A stretch of 64,000 nucleotides of DNA from Verticillium longisporum (taxonomy: Eukaryota; Ascomycota; Sordariomycetes; Glomerellales; Plectosphaerellaceae), in the NCBI GenBank assembly GCA_019188255.1, contig JAETXT010000002.1, forward strand, positions 1,302,001 through 1,366,000, written 5' to 3'. The notes under the pieces are model-generated. The model worked only from the letters and a program-made list of their open reading frames with translations. It was not told the origin of the DNA and did not search any database. Positions 11,547-13,425 of this stretch are shown piece after piece; within the stretch, counting starts at the first letter, position 1; each line of letters begins with the position of its first letter. A program made the translations under genes and the position numbers.

Positions 11547-12889
11547 CACCCGCCAGACCACCTACGGAAGCATTGGAACTGATTCGACAAGTCCACGAAG
11601 CCAAAGCCCACGGACACCAAGGAGTAGCGAAGACATTCGCCCGACTCAGGAAACATCACGACTTCAAGGGAACCAGACAGGACGTCACAACAGTCATTCG
11701 CAACTGCGACCTCTGCAAAAAGAGCAAAGCAGAAAGGCACAGGCCTTATGGAGAACTCAAGGCTTTGCCAGTACCAGCAGCAGCCTGGGAATCAGTCTCA
11801 TTGGACTTCATCACCAGCCTGCCCCCGTCAAAGGAACCCTTAACTGGGACCTCTTACGACAACATCTTAGTAGTCGTCGACCGACTCACGAAGTACTCGT
11901 ACTTCCTCCCGTACAAAGCCACAGGCACGGCAGAAGACCTCGCCTATGTATTCCTCCGAAACATTGTGGGACAGCACGGACTACCAAAAGAATTAGTATC
12001 GGATAGAGACAAACTCTTCACCAGCAACTTCTGGAAATCGCTCATAGCTCAGCTTGGAGCCAAACACAAGCTATCCACGGCTTTCCACCCGCAGACAGAT
12101 GGACAGACGGAAAGAACGAACCAGACTTTGGAGCAATACCTCCGGTGTTATATCAACTACCAACAGGATGACTGGGTCACACTACTACCCATCGCACAGT
12201 TCGCATACAACAGCTCACCAAGCGAATCAACGAAGGAGTCACCCTTCTATGCCAACTACGGATATAACCCAACAGCCTACGCGGAGCGCCGCGAAGCACC
12301 AGACACGCCAAAAGCAACCAACATTGCGGCCAACATCCGCAAAATTCAGGACCATATCAAGCTCGACCTCGAGCTCGTACGAACCAGAATGACCACGTAC
12401 GCCAACAAAACAAGGATGAAGGGACCATCCTTACAGGAGGGAGGTAGCGTCTACCTTATCCGCCGAAACATCAAAACCAAACGACCAAACGACAAATTGG
12501 ACTTCAAGAAACTAGGACCTTTTAAAATTCTCAAGAAACTCTCGGATACCAACTACCACCTCTCATTGCCAGAGAACATGAAGATTCACCCCATTTTCCA
12601 CATAGCACTTTTGGAACCAGCACCACCGAACGCACCACTCGCAACCAGCGTGGAAGTAGAAGACACAAACGAATACGAAGTCGAAAGAATCATCGACTAC
12701 AGAAAAACGAACAAACAAGACGAGTACCTCATCAAATGGAAAAACTATGGGCATGAAGAAAACACATGGGAACCAGTCAAGAACCTGAACTGCCCGCAGT
12801 TGCTTCAAGAGTACCGTCATCCGGCACGGGACCAAGATCCGAAAACTCCTCTCCGAAGCCCAACGAGGACCAGTCCACGACGCCGCTAG
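11465..12889 (+). CDS. pol: pol part 3: integrase with C-terminal chromodomain
   Basis: The N-terminal HHCC zinc domain includes HGHQGVAKTF and CDLCKKSK. The catalytic core has the first D in SLDFITSLP, the second in LVSDRDKLF and the glutamate in TDGQTERTNQ, with 35 residues between the last two (D35E). The chromodomain near the C-terminus reads YEVERIIDYRK...EYLIKWKNY...ENTWEP, followed by a basic tail ending at TAG 12887-12889. Chromodomains of this class steer integration toward modified chromatin, which fits an insertion into silent, RIP-mutated DNA. The first 80 bases precede the first ATG (11543) and are in frame with it. The last 113 bases overlap the minus-strand gene. Confidence 0.92.
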   Translation, partial: NINAILAKDKEGNLIPYHRTLAVTTRVTPARPPTEALELIRQVHEAKAHGHQGVAKTFARLRKHHDFKGTRQDVTTVIRNCDLCKKSKAERHRPYGELKALPVPAAAWESVSLDFITSLPPSKEPLTGTSYDNILVVVDRLTKYSYFLPYKATGTAEDLAYVFLRNIVGQHGLPKELVSDRDKLFTSNFWKSLIAQLGAKHKLSTAFHPQTDGQTERTNQTLEQYLRCYINYQQDDWVTLLPIAQFAYNSSPSESTKESPFYANYGYNPTAYAERREAPDTPKATNIAANIRKIQDHIKLDLELVRTRMTTYANKTRMKGPSLQEGGSVYLIRRNIKTKRPNDKLDFKKLGPFKILKKLSDTNYHLSLPENMKIHPIFHIALLEPAPPNAPLATSVEVEDTNEYEVERIIDYRKTNKQDEYLIKWKNYGHEENTWEPVKNLNCPQLLQEYRHPARDQDPKTPLRSPTRTSPRRR

Positions 12890-13425
12890 CACCCCACTCC
12901 TGAAGGTCCTGCACCACGTTGGCCTCCTGAGCCTCGAGACTCAGGTTATCCCCACACAGAGGGAGGACGCCGTCCTCCTCATCCAACTGACGAATCCCTC
13001 GAGCAAACAACTCTTCACCACGAATCTTCGCCGCTTTCCGCATCTTGCGAAGACGGGACAAGCGACCCAAGGCCGTCGCCAATTTCGTTTGAAGCACTTC
13101 CAACTCCATTTCAGCATCCTCAATCTCCGCTTCTCGTTTCTTCTGCTCGGCAAGAGCTTTTTCCACTACACAATCATTAGGCCAGGCATAAAACCACACC
13201 AGGGACCAACTCACGCGCAGAAACCACGCTCACACCATCACAAGAGCGACCGCGGCGGACGCACTCCCCACAGCGAGAAGAACCCGGAGCAGTCTTACAG
13301 ACGAGGTGTCGCTTGAAACACCCAGTACAGGGCATTTTGATTTCGCCCTCGGAATCGATCAAAGCAGCGAGCGCTTTCCTCTGGTCGGTTTTGACGGATG
13401 AGCGTTTTATGACACGACCTGACAT
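12777..13425 (-). CDS. Antisense two-exon gene: Zn2Cys6 cluster plus coiled-coil protein, 199 aa
   Basis: Exon 1 is 13425-13215 and exon 2 is 13165-12777 (TGA at 12779-12777). Removing the 49-base intron gives an uninterrupted 600-base frame. Residues about 32-62 have the spacing C-x2-C-x6-C-x8-C-x2-C-x6-C, exactly the fungal Gal4-type binuclear zinc cluster, flanked by basic residues (FKRHLVC, VRRGRSC). A charged heptad-like stretch follows (EKALAEQKKREAEIEDAEME and onward to RLRKMRKAAK), then an acidic, Ser/Gly-rich tail. Cluster plus coiled coil suggests a dimeric DNA-binding protein; no known activation domain is recognised. The start has A at -3 and an 8-codon upstream frame begins 8 bases before it. 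It lies between pol and the 3' LTR, convergent with pol. From memory, similar proteins appear as hypotheticals in fungal genomes; no function is assigned here. Confidence 0.72.
13166..13214 (-). other. Predicted 49-base intron in the antisense gene
   Basis: On the minus strand it begins GTGAGT (13214-13209), has a branch-like CCTAATGA about 10 bases before the end, and ends TGTGTAG (13166). The length is typical of filamentous fungi. Splicing joins two frames that otherwise do not connect and keeps the reading frame across the junction. Confidence 0.7.

Follow-up and report, generated by a model that had tools for sequence, protein, structure and literature searches.

The 64,000-nucleotide window of Verticillium longisporum considered here (contig JAETXT010000002.1, positions 1,302,001 to 1,366,000; assembly GCA_019188255.1) holds a complete chromodomain Ty3/gypsy retrotransposon with a spliced reading frame for a six-cysteine protein lying opposite to gag-pol and close to the 3' long terminal repeat (LTR). 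The locus raises the question of whether this frame is a gene and, if so, what a mobile element would gain from it. Substitution patterns indicate that the antisense gene is real, spliced, protein-coding and under strong purifying selection. By sequence comparison, it is exchanged as one cassette with the U3 (unique 3') part of the LTR among near-identical elements, and motif and fold predictions make its product a probable Gal4-like DNA-binding protein.

Re-reading of the sequence reproduced the initial annotation in its coordinates, frames, 49-base GT...AG intron (13214-13166), CTAAT-like branch and length of 199 residues (Table 1), and GenBank holds an identical 199-residue model for V. longisporum (HYQ46_000728, 100% identity). 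A search of the genome (72 Mb, 16 contigs) located copies of the gene in at least 40 places (41 matches, two of them belonging to one copy). Three identical copies, including that of the window, constitute type A, and eleven mutually identical copies, 90.3% identical to A, constitute type B. The other 26 places, some of which hold partial copies, resemble products of repeat-induced point mutation (RIP) by dinucleotide index; in the four RIP-like copies whose differences from A were counted, these are mostly C-to-T before A or G-to-A after T.

Types A and B differ at 50 of 600 coding bases, distributed 3/6/41 over the codon positions, and their exons show neither indels nor internal stops. The differences cause 8 amino-acid changes, against 32 ± 3 expected when the same substitutions are placed randomly (5000 trials, minimum 21), and the ratio of nonsynonymous to synonymous rates (dN/dS) is 0.056 by NG86 and 0.107 by YN00. 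Because the introns of A and B measure 49 and 51 bases, the exon frames of the two types agree only after splicing. A second, independent pair, types D and E, gave a dN of 0.067 and a dS of 1.09; its introns (62 and 52 bases) show little similarity, and the splice junction is the same as in A. Divergence between types is larger and near saturation (A/D dN 0.48, dS 1.16). The codon-substitution analysis proposed in the initial annotation thus uncovered strong purifying selection in both pairs, as expected of a protein gene. A chance open reading frame (ORF) was rejected, as none of the 5000 simulations yielded as few amino-acid changes as A versus B, and so was sense-strand constraint as the cause of conservation, since the pol ORF ends at 12889; the final 113 bases of the antisense gene overlap the end of the integrase ORF (11543-12889).

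The gene was also sought in other gypsy elements, and it lies opposite gag-pol in one copy each of types A to E and G, its region being kept in the aligned RIP-like copies as well. Cysteines and splice junction are conserved in the intact types B, D and E, so that the loss in related elements named in the initial annotation as refuting the gene did not occur; type C carries a late frame break in this genome. Type A has an out-of-frame ATG at window position 13433 on the minus strand; it precedes the antisense start by 8 bases, and D and E have GTG in its place. At C4:228403 (L059, G000:C4:227500-235500, at about 907-1461 on the plus strand) lies a solo relative of the gene whose intron is 54 bases long. 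No gag-pol match was found within its 8 kb of sequence, its neighbours are ORFs resembling, by eye, BTB/POZ and methyltransferase proteins, and it may be a domesticated copy or a host progenitor.

Further element types were found through a genome search with the V. dahliae relative P0075, namely C (L056), D (L057), E (L058) and the RIP-mutated G (L060). Each type is represented by one copy in the comparisons; G was aligned and omitted from pairwise identities, and L059 was omitted from element comparisons. Over their main stretches, C, D and E encode gag and pol proteins that match those of the window element at 90-100% identity (61-82% in G). Antisense protein identity between the A/B, C and D/E groups, by contrast, reaches only 42-51%, with 50% between A and D. 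At the nucleotide level, without gap columns, A and D are 99.4% identical in gag, 99.2% in pol, 58.0% in the antisense gene, 50.6% in U3 and 98.5% in R-U5 (repeat and unique 5'), the corresponding values for C and E being 99.7, 96.7, 52.5, 56.3 and 98.5%. The A/D boundary is sharp, with no mismatch after 12310 until 12709 and about half of the bases differing from there to about 13774, indicating that the exchanged piece comprises the antisense gene, the polypurine-tract region and the distal U3. Groupings shift accordingly along the element: gag unites A with D and C with E, the cassette unites A with B and D with E, and pol is a mosaic that pairs A with D and has E a little closer to B (97.5%) than to C (96.7%). 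In the E copy the LTRs are identical and the 5-bp flanks match, so its cassette is established as part of a normal insertion. Escape from RIP was rejected, by reasoning, as the driver of cassette divergence, since gag-pol is near-identical and the homology that remains would leave the elements exposed.

Irregular insertions were also encountered. The type D copy has a 5' LTR some 60 bp short of its 3' LTR, and its two 5-bp flanks differ. Among four type C insertions whose ends were compared, three (L056, G000:C1:3060300-3068300; G000:C2:2410741; G000:C1:7150495) have a 5' LTR of type B or E, a 3' LTR of type C and flanks that differ, and are probably ectopic recombinants between insertions, which implies that this process also reshuffles these elements; the fourth is regular, with matching flanks and two C-type LTRs. 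The insertions at C1:3061 and C2:2410 have both flanks in common and look like one locus present twice, and C7:1397576 may, by coordinates alone, be a further mismatched case. With non-matching flanks in the three mismatched copies and two C-type LTRs in the regular one, the mismatched LTRs were rejected as proof of strand transfer in reverse transcription.

What kind of protein is maintained? The cysteine spacing of the window protein, 2-6-8-2-6, fits the Zn2Cys6 (Gal4-type) pattern C-x2-C-x6-C-x5-12-C-x2-C-x6-8-C, as had been noted at the outset, and all six cysteines are kept in 81 of 107 relatives, which are spread over many fungal genera. As to the accompanying proposal of a binuclear cluster followed by a coiled coil, structure models resemble Zn2Cys6 domains, though with low scores, and predict with high confidence a single helix of about 70 residues (64-134), a presumed coiled coil; Pfam Zn_clus gave no match to the window protein at E≤1. 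At E≤0.1 that profile matched 12 of 56 relatives, with 1.7e-4 as the best value. Foldseek returned nothing significant. A PDB search with the family profile returned 25 sequences at E≤1, the best at 0.11; most were coiled coils or helical segments, and none was a zinc-cluster protein. The viral contigs searched contained no relative, and a single 21-residue match among GTDB genomes, in an alphaproteobacterial metagenome-assembled genome (L067), was judged to be chance or contamination.

Variation within the family is unevenly distributed. Over 51 non-redundant clusters (15 of 66 clusters removed as redundant), the six-residue loop between cysteines 2 and 3 has a mean entropy of 2.79 bits, with no hexapeptide occurring twice, and the six-residue loop between cysteines 5 and 6 has 0.41 bits, VRRGRS being present in 34 clusters. 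In Gal4 the first cysteine loop touches DNA bases, and a hypervariable first loop in an otherwise conserved domain is the expected look of diversifying DNA specificity, which the pattern suggests. A net negative C-terminal tail is common to all 72 members with sufficient sequence after the cluster, a set that includes redundant sequences and omits 35 of the 107 proteins (full motif lacking or fewer than 100 residues after it); DW occurs in the tail of 49 of them, and a hydrophobic residue stands close behind in 44. We take this tail to resemble acidic activation domains.

The U3 regions that accompany these genes carry arrays of short sites. Counted on both strands, GTGANCC sites number 7 in A, 7 in B, 5 in C, 7 in D, 8 in E and 6 in G, and sit about 30 to 195 bases upstream of the TATA-like box TATATAAGG; dinucleotide shuffles contained on average 0.09-0.31 such sites and at most 3-4 in 2000. 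The count of the top 6-mer was equalled in none of 500 shuffles for A, B, D and G, in 0.2% for E and in 17% for C, and when the whole B LTR was shuffled by mononucleotide, the highest count in 1000 shuffles was 7 versus 6 observed. Between the U3s of A and B, six of seven hexamers are kept and the spacers have diverged. The preferred sequence differs between types: upstream of the proximal pair, GTGAGC and GTGATC sites number 9 and 4 in A/B, 1 and 11 in D/E, and 0 and 4 in C, and GTGACC occurs four times in C, once in D and twice in E. Fisher's test gives p 0.004 for A+B against D+E and p 0.02 for A against D alone, the latter being the fairer number as sites of related types are not independent. 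Genome-wide, there are 71 occurrences of GTGAGCCN{1,30}GGCTCAC and 6 of its reversed pattern; for GTGATCCN{1,30}GGATCAC the corresponding counts are 147 and 1. For the former, 46 of the first 50 places listed are strings known from these LTRs. At G000:C1:5713755, G000:C2:2351513 and G000:C2:820335 the spacers of GTGATCC...GGATCAC are unlike those of the examined A-E copies, and there are probably more LTR types. The same U3s contain CACGTG in all six types compared and a GATA pair in five (not C).

Taken together, selection on the gene, the DNA-binding look of its product, the arrays and the linked exchange find their simplest account in a type-specific regulator of the element's own LTR. On balance, we think it probable that the protein is a small, dimeric Zn2Cys6-type transcription factor, with zinc cluster, coiled coil and acidic tail, which would bind the GTGANCC sites arrayed in U3 of the same element type and set transcription from that LTR. 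As the gene adjoins U3 at the 3' end of the element RNA, regulator and cognate sites would move together as one cassette; recombination would place it on other gag-pol backbones, and the types would share enzymes while keeping their control private. Control of LTR transcription had been among the roles first suggested for the gene, and cassette exchange and site arrays lend it indirect support. The gene, its splicing (by frame conservation), the selection on it, the site arrays and the cassette exchange are seen in the sequences; the fold is a model prediction, and expression, dimerisation, binding to these sites and the sign of regulation are inferences. Activation appears somewhat likelier than repression, since the array's location and the acidic tail both speak for it. 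A broader and more tentative proposal is that the LTR retrotransposons of one nucleus may form control groups, each with an antisense zinc-cluster regulator and a matching U3 operator array that are exchanged as a single cassette while the DNA-reading loop diversifies.

Two considerations weigh against this account, one touching its sign and the other its substance. Extreme cassette diversity beside a homogenised, common gag-pol in one genome favours repression or immunity, and the presumed DNA-reading loop is hypervariable. A type-specific repressor serving copy-number control or homotypic immunity, like phage repressor/operator modules, would accommodate both, since a new cassette would escape resident repressors, diversity itself would be favoured, and such negative frequency dependence would explain it more naturally than activation does; we nevertheless hold this to be fairly unlikely, given that the acidic DW tail and an array upstream of the TATA box look like an activator and its upstream activating sequence. 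The main weakness lies in adjacency, which alone could explain the co-divergence of gene and U3 and would make it automatic. In that case the arrays might bind host factors and the protein act elsewhere, for instance in nuclear import or in tethering the pre-integration complex. GATA and CACGTG motifs in the same U3s, probably host-bound, fit this, as does the U3 diversification of Tnt1, for which the available portion of the source mentions no linked gene (PMC1838419). Adjacency leaves unexplained, however, why arrays in types of one genome prefer different sequences, which a single host factor would not account for, and the array pairs are concentrated in these LTRs; host binding of the arrays is to our mind unlikely.

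Two further explanations would dispense with a regulatory protein. The convergent arrangement could yield double-stranded RNA and small interfering RNA against the element, so that the antisense RNA acts, an idea likewise proposed for plant antisense ORFs in the accessible part of PMC7264820; an RNA-only function would not protect codons, and with dN/dS near 0.06 in two pairs, a frame kept across unequal introns and conserved cysteines it is largely refuted as sole function and very improbable. That the gene is a passenger, a captured fragment of a host Zn2Cys6 gene, could draw on L059 as a possible host source, but selection, presence in all element types sampled and relatives across many fungal genera refute passenger status and leave this the least credible of the explanations. 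For a type-specific regulator of the LTR, a regulator, its likely sites and naturally swapped cassettes within one genome render the question directly testable: does protein A act on array A and not on array D? If so, a mobile element would be seen to keep transcription control private while sharing enzymes, and many fungi would offer natural zinc-cluster/site pairs for the study of DNA recognition.

Table 1. Features of the retrotransposon and its antisense gene (window positions).
Feature	Position	Strand	Remarks
Target-site duplication AAAGT (5 bp), left copy	7068..7072	.	sequence reading
Complete chromodomain Ty3/gypsy retrotransposon, 6929 bp	7073..14001	+	LTR pair and Pfam domains
5' LTR, 476 bp	7073..7548	+	
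Distal U3 array, 5' LTR, matching that of the 3' LTR	7171..7277	.	
TATA-like box TATATAAGG of sense promoter	7345..7353 (5' LTR); 13798 (3' LTR)	+	
pol part: integrase and chromodomain	11543..12889	+	Pfam Chromo 2.7e-17; overlaps antisense gene 3' end
Cassette exchanged between types: antisense gene, polypurine-tract region, distal U3	12709..13774	.	~51-54% A/D identity, gaps counted; gag-pol ~99%
Antisense gene, 199 residues once spliced	12777..13425	-	between chromodomain integrase ORF and 3' LTR
Exon 2: long helix (presumed coiled coil), acidic tail with DW	12777..13165	-	
Intron, 49 bases	13166..13214	-	GTGAGT...TAG, CTAAT-like branch
Exon 1: basic N-terminus, six-cysteine (2-6-8-2-6) cluster	13215..13425	-	
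3' LTR, 476 bp	13526..14001	+	
U3 motifs: GATAAGATAAG, containing two GATA motifs, and CACGTG	13584..13621	.	
Distal U3 array, 3' LTR: 5 GTGAGC and 2 GTGATC	13624..13730	.	sites on either strand
Proximal site pair GTGAGCC...GCTCAC	13744..13767	.	similar form in types A to E
Target-site duplication AAAGT (5 bp), right copy	14002..14006	.	sequence reading

The window element (7073-14001) is young: its 476-bp LTRs are 99.8% identical, with one differing site. Pfam matches include gag, zinc knuckle, RVT_1 (reverse transcriptase), RNase H, integrase and chromodomain. Among the five types without RIP mutation, only the E copy keeps pol as one long open frame (1151 codons); in A, B, C and D it is spread over more than one frame (window region 9667-12889). 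A and B are multi-copy, some copies having identical LTRs, despite their divided pol, and thus probably moved in trans. The element forms an island of 50-55% G+C in surroundings of about 17-29% (window 1-6000 and 14001-58000), and the flanking DNA may, from its appearance, be RIP-degraded.

According to the accessible part of PMC3441728, the V. dahliae elements VdLTRE2/3/4 are 6935/6828/6870 bp long and their LTRs 476/433/455; their GAG and POL are almost identical, and some copies show RIP. Element size and LTR length match those found here (window 6929 bp and 476; C LTR 433; E LTR 453-454), and on this basis VdLTRE2/3/4 are very probably the same elements as types A or B, C and E, respectively. 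As far as that account is available, it describes gag and pol only, without mention of the antisense gene or its link to U3 (PMC3441728).

That LTR retrotransposons can carry an antisense gene in the interval from pol to the 3' LTR was already known, a point the initial annotation overlooked. Zhao et al. in 2011 (Virology 417:248) reportedly described one such gene, brtn, in the Boty/BcGypsy1 elements of Botrytis cinerea. It shares its antisense position with the Verticillium gene; one relative of the Verticillium protein comes from a Leotiomycete, Rutstroemia (P0106), and Botrytis was absent from the organism-named matches of the protein searches, a minority of all matches. In the available excerpts, the fungal Boty element has brtn lying after pol and before the 3' LTR (PMC8365987, PMC7264820). 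The plant antisense ORFs Grande gene23, RIRE2 and Retand TRP28 occupy the same place and are credited with predicted DNA binding or nuclear location and a proposed regulatory role; they have protein domains other than the zinc cluster, the sections seen do not describe linked exchange with U3 sites, and the function of LTR-retrotransposon antisense genes is there stated as unknown (PMC7264820, PMC11963269). Tnt1/Retrolyc1 combines a related coding region with strongly diversified U3 groups and, unlike the Verticillium cassette, no linked regulator gene is described in the part available (PMC1838419). An antisense gene of the Verticillium kind is likewise absent from the accessible sections of PMC3248453 and PMC10799480. 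Our literature search found no zinc-cluster protein encoded by an LTR retrotransposon, no self-acting LTR transactivator, and nothing on a zinc-cluster protein acting in such a role or being swapped along with U3. Going by the literature searched, what appears new is a probable zinc-cluster protein in this setting and the exchange of its gene as a cassette with U3, antisense genes at this position being known from plants and Boty.

Two viral systems also offer parallels. HBZ of human T-cell leukaemia virus type 1 (HTLV-1) is spliced, belongs to the bZIP factors and acts on the 5' LTR; its bZIP domain sets it apart from the predicted zinc cluster of the Verticillium protein, and it is not known to undergo cassette exchange. 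That HBZ is an antisense-encoded nuclear protein of a retrovirus is stated in the part of PMC11963269 at hand. The proposed module logic of the Verticillium gene and U3 resembles that of another system, phage immunity. In phage immunity regions, regulator and operators move together as an exchangeable module among related genomes and repression is proven, whereas for the Verticillium cassette it would be one of two possible signs. If the proposal made here is true, control groups of retrotransposons would be the eukaryotic equivalent of immunity modules in phages.
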